In this document: piece after piece, positions 2,805-15,163 of the stretch
How positions within the stretch are numbered: position 1 is the first letter of the stretch
How the letters are laid out: each line of letters starts with the position of its first letter
Assembly (NCBI GenBank): GCA_003598085.1
Contig: QZKU01000003.1
Coordinates: forward strand, 1 to 21,484
Direction: 5' to 3'
Origin: Candidatus Abyssobacteria bacterium SURF_5
GTDB lineage: Bacteria > Abyssobacteria > SURF-5
DNA: 21,484 bases
Made by a program: the position numbers and the translations under genes
The notes under the pieces: generated by a model
Told to the model about the DNA's origin: nothing
Seen by the model: only the letters and a program-made list of their open reading frames with translations
Database searches by the model: none

Positions 2805-3987
2805 TACGACCGCCGTCGAACAGCCCATTCATTCCAGCGTGAAGGCTTTAGGGTGGGTCAGTTTTCTGACGGATGTGCACAGCGAGGCGATACTGTCGCT
2901 GCTTCCGCTCTTCATCACCCAGGTGCTGGGGTTGAGTGCGACGTTTCTTGGGCTTGTCGAGGGAATCGCCGACGGCACAGCGAGCCTGCTGAAGGTATTT
3001 TCCGGCTGGTACTCCGACAGTATCGGCCGGAGGAAAGCGCCGGCTGCGGCGGGATACATGATTTCGACCGCCGTAAAACCGCTGCTCGCGATCAGTGGAG
3101 CCGGCGGGTTGGTTCTGGCCGTTCGTTTTTTTGACCGGATCGGTAAGGGGATACGCACTGCACCGCGGGATGCGATAATCGCGGATTCCACCGCCCCATC
3201 CGGCTTGGGGAAGGCATATGGTTTCCACCGGATGATGGATACGCTTGGAGCCGTGGCGGGCACGGCGTTGGCCTTTCTCCTCTTTCGTTTCCTGGGTGGA
3301 GACGAAAGCCTCAAAATGCGGTCGATTTTCCTTATATCCACGGTATTCGGGATGGCGGCGGTCGTTGTGCTCCTTGTTTTCGTCCGCGAGAAAGAGCGGG
3401 CCGCAGCATCTCACGGGGACCGGTTTAGCCGATTTCTTCCCGCTCACAAGCGCCTACTGGCTTTTGTCGCCCTGAACGTCTTTTTTTATCTCGGGATGTT
3501 CAGCTATGCGTTTTTTCTTCTTCGCGCGCGCAGTCTGGGAATCGCAACGGGTCTTGTGCCTCTCCTTTATCTCCTGTACAACATGATATATGCGCTGGCA
3601 GCTCTGCCGATGGGCAGCCTCTCCGACAGGATCGGGCGCAAACCGATCATCCTGATTTCGTACCTCTCGTATGCGGTTGTGTGCCTGACCGCCGCCTTCG
3701 CCTGGAGCGGGTGGCAGGCATGGGTGCTCTTTGCGCTCTATGGCGTCCATTCGGCGACGGTGAATCCGGCTTCGCGCGCGCTGGTGGCCGAACTTTCGCA
3801 TTATGAAGTGAAAGCGACGGCCCTCGGAATATATCATGCATCTGTCGGAGTGGCCGTTTTACCGGCAAGTCTTGTGGCGGGCATGCTATGGGATAATTAC
3901 GGGCCGGCGACGCCGTTTCTTGTGGCTGCGGTCCTCTCCTCCTGCTCGTTCCTGCTTCTTCTGCCGCTCCCCCTCGACGAACGATAA
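2776..3987 (+). CDS. MFS transporter, 12-TM type
   Basis: A 403-residue polytopic membrane protein. ATG 2776 is preferred over the in-frame TTG at 2761; it overlaps the end of the GH116 gene by 29 bases. The major facilitator signature appears twice: GWYSDSIGRRK (around residue 77) after the second membrane segment and GSLSDRIGRKP (around 280) in the second half, marking the two six-helix bundles. Between them is RFFDRIGKGIRTAPRDAIIAD (about 117-137), typical of a widespread, poorly characterised bacterial MFS group often labelled as sugar-efflux or multidrug transporters. About 12 hydrophobic segments can be traced. The coupling with a cytoplasmic glycosidase suggests it moves the glycoside or its product, but direction and substrate cannot be read from the sequence. 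Confidence 0.85.
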   Translation: MKPSGSVLVDTTAVEQPIHSSVKALGWVSFLTDVHSEAILSLLPLFITQVLGLSATFLGLVEGIADGTASLLKVFSGWYSDSIGRRKAPAAAGYMISTAVKPLLAISGAGGLVLAVRFFDRIGKGIRTAPRDAIIADSTAPSGLGKAYGFHRMMDTLGAVAGTALAFLLFRFLGGDESLKMRSIFLISTVFGMAAVVVLLVFVREKERAAASHGDRFSRFLPAHKRLLAFVALNVFFYLGMFSYAFFLLRARSLGIATGLVPLLYLLYNMIYALAALPMGSLSDRIGRKPIILISYLSYAVVCLTAAFAWSGWQAWVLFALYGVHSATVNPASRALVAELSHYEVKATALGIYHASVGVAVLPASLVAGMLWDNYGPATPFLVAAVLSSCSFLLLLPLPLDER

Positions 3988-4086: not shown

Positions 4087-5508
4087 ATGAGAAAAGAATC
4101 GGTCAGGCTGCTGCTCATTGAAGAAAACGGGACTTCTTTTTCCGCTTTGAGCGAGATTCTGCTGCGGGAGAAAGAATTTACGGTCGGGCTGGAGCGCCTC
4201 GGTGTCGCCCTGGCCCTCGGAAAAGTGAGAAGCAGACAATATGACATCTGCCTCTTGAACTGCAGCGACGCCTCGATAAAACTGCTGAACGATTTTCTGG
4301 CCCAGCACTGCACACCCTCCATCATCATCATGACGAATCTGGGTGAGACGTTGTCCACGGAAACGGACGATGCCCAGGAACAAGAAGAAGAACCGCAACC
4401 GCATTTGCTTGAAAGCGTCGTTCGTAAGACTGTCGCTTATATGAAGGAATGCGAACAGACCCAGCGAAATGACATCGGTTTCTGGACGAAGTTCCTGGAG
4501 GATTCGACTGCCATAGCTTTTCTGGATTCAGAAGGGCGTTTCCTGGTTGAGAATCGGGCGTTTCAGAAATTATTCGGTTATAGTCATCGGGAAATTGCAT
4601 GCCTGATATTAAATGACCTGGTGCATCCCGAAGAGGTTCAGGAACAGGATCGCCTCTTTCAACAGTTATTGAATGGAGCGGAAACACAGTATCGACTGGA
4701 AGGCAGATTTCTCCTCAAGAGCGGCGCGTATGCACAGGTTCGGCAGACCGCAATGAAATTAGTCGATCGCGAGAACTCGAAACAGTTTGTTTTACTGGCG
4801 CTCGAGGACGTGGTCACGCAAGAACCGGCCCTTGAGCAGGAACGCGAGGCCGGCGTGACCGGTAATGTTTCTTCACAGCTTTTCTACGCGCACGAGTCTG
4901 AAAGAAAACTGGTTGCTCAAGAGCTTCATGACAGTCTGGGAGCCTCACTCGCGGCGATCAAGTACACCCTGGAAAAGAATCTGATGCAACTGGAAAAGAA
5001 GAGGGGGCGCGCGGAAGTGTCGCTTGCGGAAGTGATACCGCTGGTACAGAGCGCGATGGAAGAAGCTCGGAGGATATCGACGAATTTATGGCCGTCGGTT
5101 CTCGACGATCTCGGGATTATTGCAACTATTAATTCTTTCTGTTCCGAATTCCAGAAGACGTATTCTTCGATAAAGGTGGAAAAACATCTGGATGCCCTGG
5201 AACAGGAAATTCCATTGTCGCTGAAAGTGGTGGTGTACAGAATAATTCAAGAAGCACTGAACAATGTGGCCAAACACAGCGGCGCAAAGCGGGTGAGACT
5301 CTCTCTGTTGAAAACGAAGGAATTTCTGGAGTTACTCGTGCAAGATGACGGACGAGGCTTCGATGTCAAGGACGAGGCGAGGAGCGGCATCGGCAAGATG
5401 GGCCTGATGAGCATGAAGAACCGAGCTGAAGCATCCGGGGGCATGTTTCTTCTTGAATCCGGGTCGGGAGAGGGGACGCGGGTGAGGACTGTATGGCCGA
5501 GGCAATGA
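4087..5508 (+). CDS. Soluble sensor histidine kinase: degenerate receiver - PAS - HisKA_3 - HATPase (NarL/DegS type)
   Basis: A 473-residue protein starting at ATG 4087 after AAGGA. Residues 5-85 look like a receiver domain (LLLIEEN, QYDICLLN, PSIIIMT), but the phospho-acceptor position is Asn58 where YDxxLLD is normal, so it probably cannot be phosphorylated. Residues 131-243 form a PAS domain (FLDSEGRFLVENRAFQKLFG). A HisKA_3 dimerisation region follows with ESERKLVAQELHDSLG, His281 being the phospho-acceptor. The C-terminal HATPase has the N box EALNNVAKHS (389-398), DDGRGFD (420) and GIGKMGL (434). No membrane segment is seen, so it senses a cytoplasmic or small-molecule signal. The obvious partner is the response regulator encoded convergently just downstream. 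Confidence 0.9.
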   Translation: MRKESVRLLLIEENGTSFSALSEILLREKEFTVGLERLGVALALGKVRSRQYDICLLNCSDASIKLLNDFLAQHCTPSIIIMTNLGETLSTETDDAQEQEEEPQPHLLESVVRKTVAYMKECEQTQRNDIGFWTKFLEDSTAIAFLDSEGRFLVENRAFQKLFGYSHREIACLILNDLVHPEEVQEQDRLFQQLLNGAETQYRLEGRFLLKSGAYAQVRQTAMKLVDRENSKQFVLLALEDVVTQEPALEQEREAGVTGNVSSQLFYAHESERKLVAQELHDSLGASLAAIKYTLEKNLMQLEKKRGRAEVSLAEVIPLVQSAMEEARRISTNLWPSVLDDLGIIATINSFCSEFQKTYSSIKVEKHLDALEQEIPLSLKVVVYRIIQEALNNVAKHSGAKRVRLSLLKTKEFLELLVQDDGRGFDVKDEARSGIGKMGLMSMKNRAEASGGMFLLESGSGEGTRVRTVWPRQ

Positions 5509-6164: not shown

Positions 6165-6481
6165 ATTCAAAATAACCTTTCGCCGAACAGAATTCTGCAA
6201 AAAAAGCCAACCACAGCGAACTGCCGAAACAGGATGCCGGCTCTTTTACTAAACCTTTATTATTTCCAATGTTAACACGCATGTTTTTCCGAAGCAAGAC
6301 ATTGTGTCCCGGCGGCATGATTTTTCCTGGCGCGGTAATGATGTCCGGTGTCGTCGCGAACGCGGGAATGGGTCTTTTCGCAAAAATTACAACGTACACC
6401 CCATATACCGCCTGTTGTTCGGGTGGTATGTTGGTACTAGGAATTCTGTAGGACGTGTGCGAAAAACAAGGAGGAACACAA
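6165..6481. promoter_or_regulatory. Divergent control region between the response regulator and the PRC-barrel gene
   Basis: About 317 bases without a gene. The perfect palindrome CAGAATTCTG lies at 6188-6197, 24 bases before the regulator start. The same GAATTCTGT core occurs on the plus strand at 6441-6449, about 32 bases before the PRC-barrel start, so each gene has one copy reading towards it. A weak promoter-like pair for the plus strand is TTGTTC (6415-6420) and TAGGAA (6438-6443) with 17 bases between. A strong ribosome binding site, AAGGAGG, is at 6468-6474. No convincing minus-strand promoter was found. Confidence 0.45.
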
Positions 6482-8227
6482 ATGAGGAAGTTTTGGATAA
6501 CGGCAGGGGTGGCGCTCACGAGTTTCGTTTTCCTGGCGGCTCCGTCTTTTGCGGCCGGGGGAGATATTGGAGGCGCATCACCATCGGCCATGAAGGGATC
6601 ATCGCAAGATTCCTTCGTCATGAGCAATCTGGTGGGCAAGAGCGTCACGAACCAACAAAACGAACAATTGGGAACGGTGGAGAACCTGGTGATTGGCGAG
6701 AATGGGCGCGTCAGCTATATCATCATGTCTCCCGCGCAGGGCATCGCTGAAAAGGATCAGTTCGTTGCCATACCCTGGAGCGCCGCCAATCCTCGTATGC
6801 AACAGGACAAAGTTTTTCTGAATCTCAGCCAGAGTCAATTACGGAACGCCCCGACGTTCGCGCGCAGCGACTGGAGTCAACTTCAAAATCCACAATGGCA
6901 GCAGCGCGTAAATGCATATTTCCGGCAGAACCAAAGACAAAGAGAGATTGAACCCGGCATGCGTGAGCAGGAACTCGAGCGGGGAACGATGGATTCGCAG
7001 AAGAGCGGGTCCAGAACCAACTTTCACATGCGCAACATTGCCGCAAGCCCCCGGGCCGGGCGCGGCGATTTCACCCGAATTCCTTCCAGTGAAAACGCGC
7101 GGCTTGAAGATTTAATCGGACAGCGAGTGGTGAGCCAGCAGGGCCAGAATCTTGGGACAGTCGAAGATCTTGTGTTGAGCGAGAACGGCCAAATCAGGTA
7201 TATCATTCTTTCCCGCAGCATGATTCAGGGCTTTGAAGACAAAGTTGCGGCAATCCCATGGAATGCGGCTCAGCCAAGCATTCAACCAAACGCTCTAATG
7301 GTCAACATCAGTCAGTCAAAGTTGAACAGCGCCCCGCACTTCTCCCAGAATCAGTTGTCCAATCTTGAAAGCCCGCAGATGCAGCATAGGATTAACAGCT
7401 ACTATGGCGTCGGCTCGATGAGAGAGATGCGCGGTGGCGGCATGATGACCGGCATGAGAGCCAATGCGCTTATTGGAGAATTGATGACGAACACGCAGGG
7501 CCAACAGTTAGGAGTGGTCAAGGATCTATTCACCAACGAAATGGGTTGCATCAAGTACGTGATCCTTTCTCCTGCGGAAGAAATGGAAATGGGCAACCGA
7601 CTGGTCGCGATTCCGTTCAATGTGGTGCAATCGGATATTGAACGTGAGACTTTAACAGCCGACATCTCTCAGAGCAAGCTGAGAGATGCACCCACCTTCA
7701 CCAGTCAGAACTGGCGCGACTATATCAACAATCCGCAGTTTGACCAGCGTGTGCACAGCTATTTTGGAGTGGAGCCCGCGGGGATGGATTCTTCGATGAT
7801 GCGGGAATACTATCCTGAACGCGTGAGCATTTTTCGCGCCACTGAAATGGTCGATCAAAACGTGATGAACCGGCAAAACCAGGAACTGGGAACGCTCGAG
7901 GATCTGGTGACCGATGACAGCGGCCGCATCAAATATCTGCTGATATCATCTGCACAGAGACCGAACCAGATCATCGCGATTCCATGGCAGGCGGCCAATC
8001 CCAGCCTCCGGGAGGATCAACTGGTGATTGACGTCTCTCAGCAGCAGTTCTTCAGCGCTCCTTCGCTGACACGGAACAATCTGCAGCAACTGGATAATCC
8101 TCAATGGGAAAGAAGGATCCACAGCTATTTTGAAGCTCCGTCGCAATACCGGCAGCGGCAGCAACGGATGCGTCCCGAATACGGCGAGGAATATGAGCAG
8201 GATTTCAGGGGCGGCTACGGCAGGTAG
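6482..8227 (+). CDS. Secreted protein with four tandem PRC-barrel repeats
   Basis: A 581-residue protein starting at ATG 6482 after a consensus AAGGAGG; an upstream in-frame start at 6455 lacks such a site. Residues 1-24 form a Sec signal peptide (KFW, hydrophobic core, SFAA). The mature part has four related units of about 100 residues at roughly 46-148, 207-308, 327-428 and 453-550. Each begins VGKSVTNQQNEQLGTVENLV-like (LxGxxVxNxQGQxLGTVEDLV), continues with YIILS, VAIPW, a DISQSKL-like strand and NAPTF, and closes with NPQWxxRVxSYF. Gln/Met/Arg-rich linkers join them. This is the PRC-barrel fold, known as single domains in photosynthetic reaction centre subunit H and RimM and in many exported stress proteins. 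The function is unknown; a periplasmic binding or scaffold role is possible. The tail is rich in Arg, Gln, Glu and Gly. Confidence 0.85.
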   Translation: MRKFWITAGVALTSFVFLAAPSFAAGGDIGGASPSAMKGSSQDSFVMSNLVGKSVTNQQNEQLGTVENLVIGENGRVSYIIMSPAQGIAEKDQFVAIPWSAANPRMQQDKVFLNLSQSQLRNAPTFARSDWSQLQNPQWQQRVNAYFRQNQRQREIEPGMREQELERGTMDSQKSGSRTNFHMRNIAASPRAGRGDFTRIPSSENARLEDLIGQRVVSQQGQNLGTVEDLVLSENGQIRYIILSRSMIQGFEDKVAAIPWNAAQPSIQPNALMVNISQSKLNSAPHFSQNQLSNLESPQMQHRINSYYGVGSMREMRGGGMMTGMRANALIGELMTNTQGQQLGVVKDLFTNEMGCIKYVILSPAEEMEMGNRLVAIPFNVVQSDIERETLTADISQSKLRDAPTFTSQNWRDYINNPQFDQRVHSYFGVEPAGMDSSMMREYYPERVSIFRATEMVDQNVMNRQNQELGTLEDLVTDDSGRIKYLLISSAQRPNQIIAIPWQAANPSLREDQLVIDVSQQQFFSAPSLTRNNLQQLDNPQWERRIHSYFEAPSQYRQRQQRMRPEYGEEYEQDFRGGYGR

Positions 8228-8316: not shown

Positions 8317-9744
8317 TCAGATCAAGTTTTCCTCGCCATTTCGAAGCGCAAGAGCGTCCTCCATCCTGTCGCGCAGGAAGAGACGGGTCCTCTGGGCGAT
8401 GGGGTTTGATTCGCCCTCCTGCGAAACGGATTCAAGCAAAATCCTGATGCCGCGCAGGTATTCATCCAGAACGATTCTGCGTTCCGCGGCTGACAAGCGG
8501 CGCCTGGCGCCGCTGATTTTCACCGGCTTGTCAAGATTTTTTTGGAGACGATCCATGAAAATGAGCGAGTGGAAGAAAGAGGCGAACAATTCCTCCATGT
8601 TTTTCTGTGAATGTCCGCCCTTCATATTCTCAAGAAAATTTTTCTCATTGATGAAGCTGAAGAAGACATTGTTATTGGATTCCGTCTCGTCCGAAAGGGC
8701 ATTCCCGGTCAGGGTAAGCATGAAGCGCTCGTAAGAAAAATCGTCAAACCCCTTCAGATCGGCAAAATACTCTCGAAAGCCGGGGCTCGCGGTGCATTGG
8801 ATCCTGTCGCCCAAAATATGTAATGTTTCATGAGCCGCGATCGTTCTCAATTCATCGAGGGGTTCCTCTCGAAGCGTTCGCACGTAAAACCAGATGTCAC
8901 TGCCTTCATCGCACGTGACCGCATTGTAAATTTCCTCATAGTCTATGATGGTGACTTCATCAACGAGGTTTACGCCGAGCGTGGATTCCACGTAATCAAT
9001 TCCCTCGGTTATAGCGTACAGTCTTTGCTCGAAATCGTCTGTTTCTTGTTTCAGTCCATCAAGATCGTTTCCGATGTACTGGAATGTGATATCGTCTCTT
9101 TCCTTTGGTTCCACCGAAACGGTTTGGACGGTGGTCAACTCTCTCTGCCTGATCGGGATCGTGTACGTCTTTCCTGCCGATGAGAAGTTCAAATTGAATT
9201 CGCTTTCCTGATCCAAAGCGGTGCCGTTCACCCTTGGAAAGAGCGAATATCCGCCGCCGAGAAACGAATTTTCGGCAGTGACGGAACCATTTTTTTCGTA
9301 ATACGCCTGGTCGAGGTCGGGCAATTCCAGATCCTGGGGTTTTAACGTTCCGAAATACTTGAGAGAGTAAGTCCCATCGGAGTTCTTTCGAATCCTGTTC
9401 AGGTCCTTGCCCTCTATATCCACTGCCATATCTTCTTCACATAAGACGACTATACCGCACACATACCCGTCCATTTCGATCCGGGACATCGATTTCAAAT
9501 CTTCCTTCCGGTAAATGATCGGGATCAGTTTGCCGTCGATAACGCTATACAGACGTATCAAGCCCACCTTATCCGCCAAATCTTTTGAATTAGGCGTTCC
9601 TTGATTTGGGGCGGCGGAGGTGTCTTGTGGAGATGGGCGCTGCTGCGCGGATTTCGAATCAGGATCGGGGAAGCCGCGGGCATGGCCGCCGGAAGACATG
9701 AGGATCCCGCAGGATAGACAAACGAGGATTAGCGCCTGTTTCAT
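8317..9744 (-). CDS. Exported HExxH metallopeptidase-like protein
   Basis: A 475-residue protein starting at ATG 9744. An N-terminal signal peptide (residues 1-22, ending GGHARG) is followed by a Pro/Ser/Gln-rich linker to about residue 55. The next 200 residues are not recognised and look mostly beta-stranded. Residues 301-313 read TIAAHETLHILGD, with His305, Glu306 and His309 as zinc ligands and catalytic base of a zincin. The metzincin third ligand is absent (Ile315 where HExxHxxGxxH would place His). A downstream EELFASFF (Glu385) fits the gluzincin or lethal-factor-like third ligand, with Glu325 (REYFADLKG) as an alternative. It probably folds as a secreted or periplasmic peptidase; activity and substrate are unknown. 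No strong ribosome binding site sits directly before the start. It is monocistronic, with its own promoter at 9861-9890 and the shared terminator at 8271-8313. Confidence 0.72.
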   Translation of the reverse strand: MKQALILVCLSCGILMSSGGHARGFPDPDSKSAQQRPSPQDTSAAPNQGTPNSKDLADKVGLIRLYSVIDGKLIPIIYRKEDLKSMSRIEMDGYVCGIVVLCEEDMAVDIEGKDLNRIRKNSDGTYSLKYFGTLKPQDLELPDLDQAYYEKNGSVTAENSFLGGGYSLFPRVNGTALDQESEFNLNFSSAGKTYTIPIRQRELTTVQTVSVEPKERDDITFQYIGNDLDGLKQETDDFEQRLYAITEGIDYVESTLGVNLVDEVTIIDYEEIYNAVTCDEGSDIWFYVRTLREEPLDELRTIAAHETLHILGDRIQCTASPGFREYFADLKGFDDFSYERFMLTLTGNALSDETESNNNVFFSFINEKNFLENMKGGHSQKNMEELFASFFHSLIFMDRLQKNLDKPVKISGARRRLSAAERRIVLDEYLRGIRILLESVSQEGESNPIAQRTRLFLRDRMEDALALRNGEENLI

Positions 9745-11286: not shown

Positions 11287-11796
11287 TTAAGTCGCAAGGG
11301 TGCTTTTTATCCAGTTCCACAGGGCGGTAAAGTATTCAATAGCGACGGGATCGCTGGAGTCGGCGGACCATACGTATCTTCCAATTCCCACTTGGGCCAA
11401 AACAAATTTCCCTAATGCCAATTGCCCGATCGCTGTCAGTCCTGTCGCGAGCTGTCCCACCCCAAAGTATCCGCCCAATGCGACCTGTCCTATGGCCAGA
11501 AAGCCGGCGGTAAGCTGTCCGATCCCGAGAAGTAATCCCACGCCGAACTGAGAAATCGTTATTAACCCGACAGCAAATTGGCCGATTGCAATGATTCCTT
11601 TTGCAACCAGCAAGCGCCCGGTTTCACGGTTTCGCCCAATCGCGACGTGTACCAGCGGAAATCCAAAAATCCGGGTTTTGCTCCTCCACTCATAGTGGAA
11701 AACCCGGGTATGGGGCGGCGTGATACTGTAGCCACACCGGGGGCAGACGTAGTTTTTCATTTCGCCGCCGCATTGCGGGCACGACTGAACCTGCAT
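11287..11796 (-). CDS. Zinc-ribbon protein with Gly/Gln repeats
   Basis: A 169-residue protein starting at ATG 11796 with GAAGG upstream. The N-terminus is a treble-clef-type zinc ribbon, CPQC (Cys6, Cys9) and CPRC (Cys18, Cys21). A short linker with FHYEWRSKTRIFGFPLVHV follows. From about residue 66 to 138 there are at least seven repeats of 10-11 residues built on [AG]IGQxxxG (AIGQFAVG, GIGQLTAG, AIGQVALG, GVGQLATG, AIGQLALG). The repeat is hydrophobic and small-residue-rich with Gln at each turn, which could be a beta-solenoid-like stack or close-packed membrane hairpins. Related uncharacterised proteins occur in several environmental phyla. The function is unknown. It faces the DUF948-like gene tail to tail, and no terminator is visible in the 42 bases between them. 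Confidence 0.7.
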   Translation of the reverse strand: MQVQSCPQCGGEMKNYVCPRCGYSITPPHTRVFHYEWRSKTRIFGFPLVHVAIGRNRETGRLLVAKGIIAIGQFAVGLITISQFGVGLLLGIGQLTAGFLAIGQVALGGYFGVGQLATGLTAIGQLALGKFVLAQVGIGRYVWSADSSDPVAIEYFTALWNWIKSTLAT

Positions 11797-11856: not shown

Positions 11857-13359
11857 CTAAGGCCGGTCATTGCCCCGTGCTGCCACCTCGGATTTGACAA
11901 ATTTTTCATCCTTGACGACGTAACTGACATCCGGCAGCCTCTTCAGGTTTTCATTGAAACAACTTTTCACAAGCAGCCTGAAACTGTTCACAGGCGTAAT
12001 TGTATTATACAACTCCTGCCGATAATTTTCGGGGACATAATAAGCGTTCAGGATACCGAGTCGATCCCATTCTTTTGCACGGCCGGAAGTCATATATCCG
12101 CCGCCATGATCTCCCTGAATGATGATGATAGGCGGCGTTGAGGATCTTTTGAGAAGTTGATCGATCAAGAGTTTGGTTCGGTCGTTCATAAAGATCAACT
12201 GGTCGACATAGAGGCTCCTGACATTTTGGGTAGGCACCGTCATCGGCTGGTCATCTCCGATGTAGTTTCCCGAACTATCGAAGATGAAGGGATGATGAGG
12301 CGGAAAGAAATGAGCGAGAGTGAACGTTGGAGCCGAGATGTGGGGGATCTCGCCTGCGTTGTCGAAAAGATACAGCGTATGTTCGGCGAGCAATCGCGTC
12401 GGCCCATATTTTTCCAGTCCGCTCAAGAGCGTGGTCCGCAAGAGAATTCTTGTGAATTCTCTGCCGAGCAGGGGGGTGTAATCATAGGTCACGTCGGCGA
12501 TATCGGATTTTCTCGTTTCCGATGCGAACGTATTAAAATGCACATATCGATAACCTTTTGACTGGAGGTACCGCGCAATGAGCGGTTCGCGAAGCATCTT
12601 GAGCAACTGGTTTTCGTTCATCCCGTCTTTCAGATAGTGCAGGTTCAGGGACGACGACAGCGAGTAAATCGTATTCGGATAATTGCTGAAGCTTTGGTCG
12701 GCGATATAGAACCCCCTGCTCTTCAGGAAGTCGATAAAGGAGGAATTGTCATAGCCGTACAACTGTTTTAAACTGTCCGCGCGACTGTAGGAATCCAGGA
12801 TAATGTAGTAGATATCCGGCATGGGCTCGGCGGCCTTTGGCTGCGCCTGCCTTGGGTCCGCCACAACATTTAACACGGGTTCAACGACTACTTCCGGTTG
12901 CTTTTCATATGTGGCAAGAACCTGAGAGAAAATAGTGACGGGAGAAATGAGCAGGATAACAGCAGGCGCAATGGTGAAGAAGACGGTGAGCTGCTCGATG
13001 TTGCGGGCTCTCCAAACGGCTGCGATCGTTCCTGCAAAAAACACCGCCAGATATATACCCAAGACCAGGTGCGCGACAAACACATTTTGAAAGAAGTTCC
13101 AGCTCCATATCAGCTCGAAAAGATGCCCGTAACCAAAAAAAAGGAGGAGCAGGAGTGAGACGGTGGCGGCGGTTCGAGCCCAGTCTCTGCTTACCAGCCA
13201 GAGCACTCCGAGCAGCAGCGCGCACGCTCCGACAGAAACAAGAGCGGGCAGAAGCAATTCGACAAATTCAACTTTCTGAGAATTGTGAGACCACAGGAAG
13301 ACGATCGGAGCAGCGGCGAAGAGGAAAGGATGGATTGCGGTAATCTTCTTCAAGCTCAC
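11857..13359 (-). CDS. Polytopic membrane protein with periplasmic sulfatase/alkaline-phosphatase-fold domain
   Basis: A 500-residue protein starting at GTG 13359, sharing four bases (GTGA) with the stop of the methyltransferase gene. Five hydrophobic segments fill residues 10-148. The C-terminal part, from about 180, is an alkaline phosphatase superfamily domain: DIYYIILDSYSRAD (Asp189, metal), SNYPNTIYSLSSSLN (Thr230, probable nucleophile), HHPF (His355/356) and IIIIQGDHGGG (Asp417, His418). A Thr nucleophile and the N-terminal membrane bundle recall LtaS and phosphoethanolamine transferases rather than true formylglycine sulfatases, which carry a CxPxR motif not found here. It likely hydrolyses or transfers a phosphate-linked head group on an envelope polymer or lipid. 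It is the last gene of a three-gene operon. Confidence 0.8.
   Translation of the reverse strand: MSLKKITAIHPFLFAAAPIVFLWSHNSQKVEFVELLLPALVSVGACALLLGVLWLVSRDWARTAATVSLLLLLFFGYGHLFELIWSWNFFQNVFVAHLVLGIYLAVFFAGTIAAVWRARNIEQLTVFFTIAPAVILLISPVTIFSQVLATYEKQPEVVVEPVLNVVADPRQAQPKAAEPMPDIYYIILDSYSRADSLKQLYGYDNSSFIDFLKSRGFYIADQSFSNYPNTIYSLSSSLNLHYLKDGMNENQLLKMLREPLIARYLQSKGYRYVHFNTFASETRKSDIADVTYDYTPLLGREFTRILLRTTLLSGLEKYGPTRLLAEHTLYLFDNAGEIPHISAPTFTLAHFFPPHHPFIFDSSGNYIGDDQPMTVPTQNVRSLYVDQLIFMNDRTKLLIDQLLKRSSTPPIIIIQGDHGGGYMTSGRAKEWDRLGILNAYYVPENYRQELYNTITPVNSFRLLVKSCFNENLKRLPDVSYVVKDEKFVKSEVAARGNDRP
12441..12462 (-). repeat. Perfect inverted repeat inside the sulfatase-like gene
   Basis: AGAGAATTC and GAATTCTCT, nine bases each, flank the 4-base loop TTGT. 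It encodes part of REFTRILLR in the gene and would form a stable hairpin in its mRNA. It may be chance, or may affect translation or message decay. Confidence 0.6.
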
Positions 13360-14750
13360 CGAAGTTTCCTCATCAAGTAGAGCGTGCGGGAGGTTTGAGG
13401 GATCGGCTTTTCGGACTCGATGGAAAAAAACTTCCCGAATTCTTCTTTGAAATCCTGTTGCGAATATCGCGGAAAGACGTCGTCCCTCATTGCCAGCAGC
13501 CGCCGGACCTGTGAGTCATCCTTGGGGACAAACTCAACGATTAACCAGTCGCCGAGCTTTTGGAAGAAGGAGGCGATTCGGGAGAGCGGAACGTTGTTCG
13601 CAAGCGCCAGGTGGTGGATGAGCCCGAGCGCAAGAACCGCATCGATGGCTCCTCGATCAGTAAAGGACATTCTCTCGGTATTATCCCAGCCGATGCCCGG
13701 GGTCGGGTTCGTCACGTCCAGCAGCAGCGGCAGGATATTCTTTTCGCCCGCGGTCAGCATCGTCGAGTAATTATGCTCCACGCATGCGGGGTCCAGATCC
13801 CAGGAAACAACATACGAGGCTCTCGTGCAGGCGAGGCGGCTGAACTTGCCGGTATTTGCCCCAATATCCCATACCGTCTGCGGCCGAATGCGATCCAGGA
13901 ATTCGGAGGCAATATTCGCCTTCTGGTCCAGAGCGTCATCTGTATAGTTGTGTTGTCCCTCGTAGTAGTTGATCCAATGGCCGCGATCCCACCGCCAGGT
14001 TAGTTTGTGGATAGCTGTTTCGAGGCTGTCGAGGAGAGCGAAGAAGGAGCGCCTGGTGAAGGTCTTTGTGATCGTCTCCCGTCTGATCGTTGTGCTCTGA
14101 TGTGTTCTCTGACTGCGCGAGTGCATGACGATGTGCAGCCAGATTGACGGATTTAACTTGCTGCCGATCGGTAGTAGTGAGCGGGCAAGATCAAGCGGAA
14201 TGCCCTCGAGGTGGATCCGCAGGAGCTGGCCGAGGCGCACGTCCCTCTTGCACATCAGCGCCAGCGGGGCCAGGAAATGCTCGCAGAATTGCTTATAGGC
14301 AACCCAGGGGCGCCCCTCGACGTAACGCTCAAACGAAAGGATATCAATGAGCACCTGCCTGCTCTCAAGCACCTGGATGTTATACGCGTTCGCGTCCTTC
14401 AGCGACATTCCTTTTTCAAGAGCTTTCTGCTGAATGTGCAGAGTGGCCAGGGCGGCGTTTTTCAAATGACTGAAGCACCACTCATAGGGATAGGAGATGA
14501 AAGGGATAAGGCGCGGTTTCAGGACTTTATATGCGTCAGCGGAGATCCCGAGCGCAGGTCGGACTTCCTCATGCTCGACCAGAAGTCCGCTTTTTGTCAG
14601 CTCGCCATACAGGCCGCTTTGTATCAGATAGTCGAATGCCTGCGCATATCCGCCGTTTACCTGTCGGTACAATGAACCATCGCGCCAAAACAAGAACCCG
14701 CTCGGATCTCGAAAAGACCCGGCGACCAGTGTTGTTTCACCGGTTTTCAT
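13356..14750 (-). CDS. Two-part SAM-dependent methyltransferase (NoeA-like), N-terminal kinase-like region
   Basis: A 464-residue protein starting at ATG 14750, preceded by AGGTGA. The C-terminal half is a class I methyltransferase: TVWDIGANTGKFS (about 292-304) is motif I, VVSWDLDP (314-321) carries the acidic residue of motif II, and ALGLIHHLAL (374-383) is the post-motif loop. The N-terminal half begins with GSFRDPSGFLFWRDGSLYRQV, typical of a family including proteins labelled nodulation NoeA-like. Its middle, LKDANAYNIQ (Asp119, Asn124) followed by VLIDILSFE (Asp136), has the spacing of a kinase/aminoglycoside-phosphotransferase catalytic loop and metal-binding Asp. The target is unknown. 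Operon context with a membrane alkaline-phosphatase-fold protein suggests modification of a surface polymer or lipid-linked intermediate. Confidence 0.75.
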   Translation of the reverse strand: MKTGETTLVAGSFRDPSGFLFWRDGSLYRQVNGGYAQAFDYLIQSGLYGELTKSGLLVEHEEVRPALGISADAYKVLKPRLIPFISYPYEWCFSHLKNAALATLHIQQKALEKGMSLKDANAYNIQVLESRQVLIDILSFERYVEGRPWVAYKQFCEHFLAPLALMCKRDVRLGQLLRIHLEGIPLDLARSLLPIGSKLNPSIWLHIVMHSRSQRTHQSTTIRRETITKTFTRRSFFALLDSLETAIHKLTWRWDRGHWINYYEGQHNYTDDALDQKANIASEFLDRIRPQTVWDIGANTGKFSRLACTRASYVVSWDLDPACVEHNYSTMLTAGEKNILPLLLDVTNPTPGIGWDNTERMSFTDRGAIDAVLALGLIHHLALANNVPLSRIASFFQKLGDWLIVEFVPKDDSQVRRLLAMRDDVFPRYSQQDFKEEFGKFFSIESEKPIPQTSRTLYLMRKLR

Positions 14751-14778
14751 GAGTACTATTCACCTGACGGCTTTTCGG

Positions 14779-15054
14779 CTACTCTGATAGTTCATTTTGC
14801 CGGGGTGTTGGGGATGGCTCATCGGGCTCTGCGGAGGCTTCAATGGGGGGCTTTCGGCTGCGGCCAATCGCCAGGAGCAAATCGAGTATTCTCCTTCGAA
14901 TGGTTCTTACTGCGAATCCAGCTCCAAGCAGCGCCGCAATAAGCAACTGAAAGAGATAGCTTCCGGTTCCGGGGTCAATATAAGCAATAAGGCAGGTATG
15001 GAATAACTGAGCTGCGGTCTGGTTCTGTAGCGCCAGGAATTCCGTTGAGACCAT
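14779..15054 (-). CDS. Small membrane protein of the IDPGTGS family
   Basis: A 91-residue protein. ATG 15054 is chosen since AGGGGGG lies about nine bases upstream; the longer frame starting at ATG 15144 would begin at the promoter itself, before the predicted transcription start. AYIDPGTGSYLFQ is followed by one or two tightly packed membrane segments (LLIAALLGAGFAV), then a basic stretch RTIRRRI and a polar Pro/Glu-rich tail. Small proteins with [YI]IDPGTGS recur next to alkaline-phosphatase-fold membrane proteins and NoeA-like methyltransferases, as I recall the family, which is what is seen here. No function has been shown to my knowledge; a subunit or partner of the membrane transferase is plausible. 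It is the first gene of its operon, 28 bases ahead of the methyltransferase. Confidence 0.7.
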   Translation of the reverse strand: MVSTEFLALQNQTAAQLFHTCLIAYIDPGTGSYLFQLLIAALLGAGFAVRTIRRRILDLLLAIGRSRKPPIEASAEPDEPSPTPRQNELSE

Positions 15055-15134
15055 ATCAATTCCCCCCCTGGGCCAACTTGTGCGATTCATGGCAAAGCGA
15101 TGGTCGCTCACGGTTTTCTCTGTAAGATCTTCAA

Positions 15135-15163
15135 AATATATCATATTATGTGAAATACGTCAA
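15135..15163 (-). promoter_or_regulatory. Sigma70-type promoter of the IDPGTGS-methyltransferase-sulfatase operon
   Basis: Read on the minus strand: -35 TTGACG (15163-15158), exactly 17 bases, then -10 TATATT (15140-15135). The start point would be near 15128, leaving a leader of about 74 bases before ATG 15054. The surrounding bases are AT-rich relative to the genes. This placement argues against the longer reading frame starting at 15144. Confidence 0.78.

Follow-up and report, generated by a model that had tools for sequence, protein, structure and literature searches.

The nodL-noeA-noeB operon of Sinorhizobium meliloti is listed as a set of three genes in the literature (PMC9048898, PMC9758233, citing Ardourel 1995). 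Since 1995, its noeA and noeB genes have been referred to as host-range nodulation genes; our literature search turned up no biochemical role for either. A 2022 survey of the Legionella pan-kinome describes Lani_1194, the NoeA homolog of Legionella anisa, as a kinase combined with a methyltransferase; among 816 neighborhoods, its neighbors Lani_1193 and Lani_1195 (alkaline-phosphatase fold) recur in 65% and 38%, respectively, and Lani_1193-1194-1195 are proposed as effectors (PMC9758233). Kinase and methyltransferase activities are also combined in WbdD of Escherichia coli O9a, which makes a methyl phosphate on a membrane-linked glycan (PMC3482155). Here, we describe a related locus from Candidatus Abyssobacteria bacterium SURF_5 (assembly GCA_003598085.1, contig QZKU01000003.1, positions 1 to 21,484), and refer to the whole analyzed stretch of 21,484 nucleotides as the window. 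A first-pass annotation of this DNA knew of no named pathway with the composition of its three-gene operon, but the rhizobial and Legionella gene sets are precedents. The three genes almost certainly constitute an S-NoeA-NoeB operon, where S denotes a small membrane protein, with the following features:

14779-15054, minus strand: S gene, 91 amino acids, predicted single-pass membrane protein with a YIDPGTGS motif (open reading frame, ORF)
13356-14750, minus strand: NoeA homolog, 464 amino acids, with a predicted kinase-like N-terminal half and a C-terminal class I S-adenosylmethionine (SAM) methyltransferase (ORF, homology)
11857-13359, minus strand: NoeB-like membrane enzyme of the alkaline phosphatase (AlkP) superfamily, 500 amino acids, with five transmembrane helices and a catalytic domain (PF00884, model)
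13356-13359, minus strand: GTGA stop/start overlap of the noeA-like and noeB-like genes (sequence)
15135-15163, minus strand: candidate extended sigma-70-like promoter, TTGACG-17-TATATT (consensus match)

We scanned 84,980 species genomes and obtained at least 529 NoeA relatives, of which we analyzed the best 80, those nearest to the window gene. They come from Chloroflexota, Zixibacteria, Omnitrophota, Planctomycetota, Armatimonadota, Acidobacteriota, Bacillota, Krumholzibacteriota, an Altiarchaeales metagenome-assembled genome (MAG) and others; the phylum of the window itself comprises three genomes in total. With the window and five plasmid loci added to the counts, 71 of 80 loci with room for it have S as the immediate upstream neighbor of NoeA on the same strand, and in 69/70 S is no farther than about 6 kb away. 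NoeB directly follows NoeA in 46/76, and all three genes are contiguous in 40/70. The commonest orders among the 80 genome loci are S-NoeA-NoeB (34) and S-NoeA (28). Because this set is made up of the nearest relatives of the window gene, we also used a second sample of 192 genomes from across the domain, chosen independently of the operon. Full-length NoeA occurs in six of them, adjoined by S in five and by an AlkP-superfamily gene in all six (in G006, this gene is convergent and narrowly misses the Pfam cut-off). Moreover, the divergence of NoeA correlates with that of NoeB (Mantel r 0.52, p 2e-4) and of S (r 0.38, p 2e-4). The co-occurrence of S, NoeA and NoeB is far beyond chance: in answer to the co-occurrence search proposed with the first-pass annotation, the homologs are found mostly together rather than mostly apart. 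The NoeA tree mixes phyla (28 changes vs. a minimum of 16, with modest support), a pattern that horizontal spread could produce, but that does not prove it. The immediate flanks of the operon are diverse, with glycosyltransferase families in few of 117, and a fixed polysaccharide locus is therefore unsupported.

The S protein matches no Pfam or NCBIfam family model, and a literature search for IDPGTGS found nothing. Nevertheless, this motif, which had been picked out as invariant-looking from a single sequence, is genuinely near-invariant across 67 homologs: Y25, D27 and Q36 are found in all of them, and P28, G29, G31 and S32 are more than 90% conserved. A single transmembrane helix follows the motif in 67/67 homologs, the tail has a mean charge of +2.7, and in 47/67 the motif is preceded by a signal-like segment with AxA at its end; on these grounds, the motif is predicted to lie outside and the Arg/Lys-rich tail inside. 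S is also present in the classic nodulation operon. In Ensifer canadensis, the gene order is nodL, an ORF of 71 amino acids, noeA and noeB, and this ORF, which reads ...AHAYLDPGTGSM..., is the S protein; pSymA of S. meliloti 1021 likewise carries an S ORF. This small YLDPGTGS gene, conserved in Sinorhizobium/Ensifer and located between nodL and noeA (positions 3718-3966 of locus L171 and 7754-7969 of locus L010), is missing from the published description of the nod box n5 operon, which names three genes.

By sequence comparison, the middle gene is a full-length homolog of rhizobial NoeA (34-36% identity over 96-98% of the length, E about 1e-52 to 5e-66; tblastn against plasmids), with nearer plasmid-borne relatives in Singulisphaera (54%) and Gemmatirosa (49%; tblastn). 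The SAM site D295-x-G-x-N-x-G301 in its C-terminal half is identical in 70/70 homologs, as are R29, D119, N124 and D136 in the N-terminal half, and the latter four residues are also found in rhizobial NoeA. In the AlphaFold2 (AF2) model (predicted local distance difference test score, pLDDT, 93.7), the N-terminal half shows a long helix (93-112) followed by an LKDANAYN loop, a hairpin (125-134) and ID136, the order expected from the catalytic loop, β7-β8 and metal-binding Asp of a kinase. Based on the invariant residues, this order of secondary structure elements and the published model of the Legionella homolog, a kinase is the most likely identity of this half. The extra catalytic-looking half that the first-pass annotation had perceived is thus real, as its four invariant residues attest, but need not be regarded as an unknown catalytic module. 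As a possible relative of this half, RIO1 was considered and not used, since a single family member matched at 0.069, which is too weak; a role in defense was set aside as well, as the PADLOC match was at the methyltransferase level only.

When the whole NoeA model is compared to known structures, Foldseek places WbdD at ranks 1-3, and every listed VIA-align match falls on the methyltransferase half (residues 254-464). In VIA-align, NodS, ChlM, the methylphosphate capping enzyme (Z 17.7) and WbdD match this methyltransferase half at Z of about 17-19. As these matches are effectively tied, within about 2 Z, the likeness to WbdD and to methylphosphate capping is no specific proof.

The third protein matches PF00884 at 7e-9, above the Pfam cut-off, and a profile of its family recovers rhizobial NoeB at 8.3e-15. 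Its AF2 model (mean pLDDT 85.4) comprises five membrane helices (10-25, 33-57, 60-86, 93-117 and 121-153) and an AlkP domain; Foldseek ranks full-length MCR-1, full-length EptA and the EptC domain 1-3, and in VIA-align hydrolases and transferases are tied in Z. T230, H350, H355 and D417 are conserved in 32/32 family members, D189 in 31/32 and H418 in 26/32, a spacing which we take to match the E-T-H-D-H pattern of EptA/MCR, with T230 presumably corresponding to the Thr nucleophile of EptA. Membership in the NCBIfam EptA/MCR-type family is not indicated, given 13.2 bits against a cut-off of 500. On the basis of fold and architecture, NoeB may work like an EptA/MCR-type enzyme, and the earlier description as a five-helix membrane protein with a Thr-nucleophile AlkP fold is borne out. 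The sulfatase alternative offered along with it is unlikely, because the nucleophile position of a formylglycine sulfatase would hold Cys or Ser, and here it is an invariant Thr. In loci L072, L075 and L078, a tandem pair of NoeB-like genes follows NoeA.

The contexts in which S occurs outside this operon are instructive. Among 32 confident S loci, S lies beside NoeA in 20. In G228, G229 and a second locus of G302, it directly precedes NoeB, and NoeA is absent from the locus; in G002, which belongs to the same family as the window, it lies beside a PF00884 gene (1.8e-31), and in G247 its neighbor is an AlkP gene, the locus lying at the end of a contig. In G189, S forms the N-terminus of a PF01663 phosphodiesterase. 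Other loci associate S with PF04464, a family that transfers phospho-alditols. A same-strand run in G120 reads S, PF04464, a cytidylyltransferase:phosphoenolpyruvate mutase, phosphonopyruvate decarboxylase, an Fe-type alcohol dehydrogenase and NoeB. Fusions of S to PF04464 occur in two genomes with phosphonate genes alongside, namely PepM, Ppd and PhnW in G211 and a Ppd-like gene in G212. Profile matches in these phosphonate operons include PepM (TIGR02320, 1.2e-115) and Ppd (TIGR03297). PF04464 also lies directly upstream of NoeB in G227 and in another locus of G228, whereas the S loci of G006, G007 and G265 have no partner of these kinds. In phosphonate-making operons, a PF04464 enzyme can occupy the place of NoeA, and this exchange is the strongest pointer to the role of NoeA. 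Phosphonates, in turn, are mostly destined for cell surfaces (PMC6697681).

Several individual loci in this set deserve mention. In locus L129 of G002, positions 4832-4948 encode the last 39 residues, and no more, of a NoeA homolog (38% identity), overlapping the start of a PF00884 gene; with nucleotidyltransferase/HEPN-like genes upstream, it looks like a truncated operon. An N-terminal S-like membrane segment, YIDPGT or YIGPGAGF, is seen in PF01663 phosphodiesterases at L130 (1539-3680), L118 (1438-3147) and L117, the PF01663 assignment having been checked for L130 and L118. Finally, L165 (1328-9647) and L166 carry a 2-aminoethylphosphonate operon in which a fusion of the S domain to PF04464 is followed by a protein of 913 amino acids with a YidC-like (60KD_IMP) domain.

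How might these proteins work together? We consider it about an even chance that they form a modular decoration unit which attaches a phosphoryl group to a glycan or glycolipid of the envelope. On the inner side of the cytoplasmic membrane, the kinase-like domain of NoeA would phosphorylate a membrane-bound saccharide at a hydroxyl, and the C-terminal methyltransferase of NoeA would O-methylate that phosphate, like WbdD on the O9a O-antigen. S may serve as a membrane adaptor, with its DPGTGS loop facing outward and its basic tail recruiting the cytoplasmic enzyme, a role suggested by the fusions and the gene neighborhood. On the outer side, NoeB would handle the phospho-substituent, most likely by transfer to the final acceptor, or possibly by trimming. 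The cytoplasmic enzyme appears to be replaceable, as some genomes have PF04464 and phosphonate genes between S and NoeB in place of NoeA. More tentatively, and rather doubtfully as yet, S, a cytoplasmic phosphoryl-transferring enzyme and NoeB could represent a general plug-in machine for phosphate or phosphonate decoration of the envelope, with NoeA and PF04464 as interchangeable parts, S as the shared adaptor and NoeB as the shared outer-face transferase. To our knowledge, Chloroflexota and archaea have no lipopolysaccharide (LPS), and the presence of the operon in Chloroflexota and an archaeal MAG argues against an LPS-specific substrate. The first-pass annotation had seen in the locus a coherent unit leading from the inside to the outside; the conserved order across phyla and the fitting topology support this.

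Several observations weigh against this decoration model. No member of the operon families has a known enzymatic activity, and a sequence search of the PDB with the N-terminal half of NoeA returned no solved kinase, but a chance match to uridylate kinase (E 1.9). WbdD is ordered methyltransferase-kinase-coiled coil, whereas NoeA shows the opposite order, with the methyltransferase at the C-terminus (254-464). AlkP domains suit hydrolysis as well as transfer. In 28 of the 80 loci, some of them on truncated contigs, S-NoeA has no adjoining NoeB, which is thus not obligatory nearby. The genes beyond the operon are diverse among the relatives, and the substrate is therefore not indicated by context.

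Some of these observations bear on other explanations, too. NoeA could be a WbdD-like enzyme that terminates chains with a methyl phosphate cap, and NoeB a hydrolase that removes or edits this cap and thereby controls chain length or turnover. The chemistry of WbdD (PMC3482155), the Foldseek ranking of the NoeA model, the presence of hydrolases in the AlkP superfamily and the tied Z scores of NoeB are in line with this, but we regard it as unlikely, given the opposite domain order and the lack of a WbdD-type coiled coil, of a linked ABC exporter and of a linked polymerase, and given that, in the window as in most relatives, the operon is separate from polysaccharide loci. A further explanation starts from the outer face. 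EptA uses phosphatidylethanolamine as a donor, and an S-NoeB core could similarly make or transfer a phosphate or phosphonate head group, with NoeA merely modifying the lipid donor, e.g. a methylphospho-lipid, used by NoeB. While S-NoeB pairs without NoeA and the EptA/MCR-like full-length architecture of NoeB favor such a core, S tracks NoeA more often than NoeB across the 80 loci, and we find this quite unlikely.

The substrate might also lie outside the envelope, with the system modifying small signal molecules that the cell secretes, as has been suggested for Nod factors. The Sinorhizobium operon is flavonoid-inducible and affects host range, and Nod factor modification has been hypothesized (PMC9048898, PMC9758233), but the operon also occurs in Chloroflexota, Omnitrophota, an Altiarchaeales MAG and many other lineages without nodulation. 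Nod factor would hence be at most a recruited substrate, and we deem this explanation improbable. Virtually no credence can be given to the notion that the three genes are unrelated chance neighbors: beyond the small size of S, nothing speaks for it, and it is already contradicted by the conserved order in dozens of genomes from many phyla and by the fusions.

All ORFs and coordinates of the initially annotated operon were recovered, including the shared strand, the GTGA overlap and a gap of 28 nucleotides between S and NoeA (14751-14778). An alternative S start at 15144 would yield 121 amino acids, but falls within the proposed promoter; for this reason, and because of its better fit to the family length, ATG 15054 is favored as the start. 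The promoter itself (15163-15135) had been called clear. The site is indeed present, with a 10/12 match to the consensus and an extended TG, but with six promoter-like sites in the region compared to 2.9 +/- 1.8 in shuffles, it is a plausible, though not proven, candidate. On the same strand, 60 nucleotides downstream of the noeB-like gene, 11287-11796 (minus) encodes a protein of 169 amino acids with N-terminal zinc-ribbon-like CxxC motifs and subsequent hydrophobic Gly-rich repeats (AIGQ...VG); it may share a transcript with the noeB-like gene, but was not observed as a conserved neighbor. Elsewhere in the window, 6455-8227 (plus) encodes a secreted-looking protein of 590 amino acids with about four similar repeats, LVGxxVxNxxxQxLGTVEDLVxxxxGxIxYxIxS, which appear PRC-barrel-like by eye, and 8317-9744 (minus) encodes a protein of 475 amino acids with a signal-like N-terminus, for which a Pfam search up to E 1 gave no match.

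The linkage of NoeA with two neighbors and its kinase-methyltransferase architecture were already published in 2022 (PMC9758233). In our literature search, whose coverage was incomplete and from which we claim no priority, we did not find any account of the DPGTGS protein as a family in its own right, of its occurrence in the classic nod operon, of the fusions that join it to AlkP and PF04464 enzymes, or of the exchange of NoeA for phosphonate-transfer genes. An operon known for host-range nodulation genes is spread over many phyla far from legumes and includes an overlooked third gene, S. That an envelope glycan or lipid is decorated with methyl phosphate is a directly testable hypothesis, for which S. 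meliloti offers a genetically tractable model. If the plug-in idea is true, the NoeA version makes methyl-phosphate groups on surface glycans in many phyla, and the host-range effects of noeA and noeB reflect an envelope trait, not a Nod factor trait.

Compared with the described systems, the window operon shares with S. meliloti nodL-noeA-noeB the succession of NoeA and a NoeB-like AlkP gene, as well as S, which lies between nodL and noeA there, but it has no NodL and no legume context. With Lani_1193-1195, it shares a probable kinase-methyltransferase protein beside an AlkP-fold neighbor; Lani_1193 probably corresponds to S, as judged from its position on the far side of Lani_1194 from the AlkP gene. 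WbdD, the closest PDB entry to NoeA by Foldseek, unites kinase and methyltransferase in one chain, as predicted for NoeA, but belongs to a different family, and its coiled coil has no counterpart in NoeA, where the chain stops after the methyltransferase. EptA, MCR-1 and EptC resemble NoeB in their five membrane helices and periplasmic AlkP domain with a Thr nucleophile, and are set apart from it by the NCBIfam profile (13.2 vs. 500 bits). Lastly, homologs of S and NoeB occur in other genomes inside operons of the Pnt phosphonyl tailoring pathways (PMC6697681), whereas the window operon has no phosphonate genes and carries NoeA in the place where PF04464 sits.

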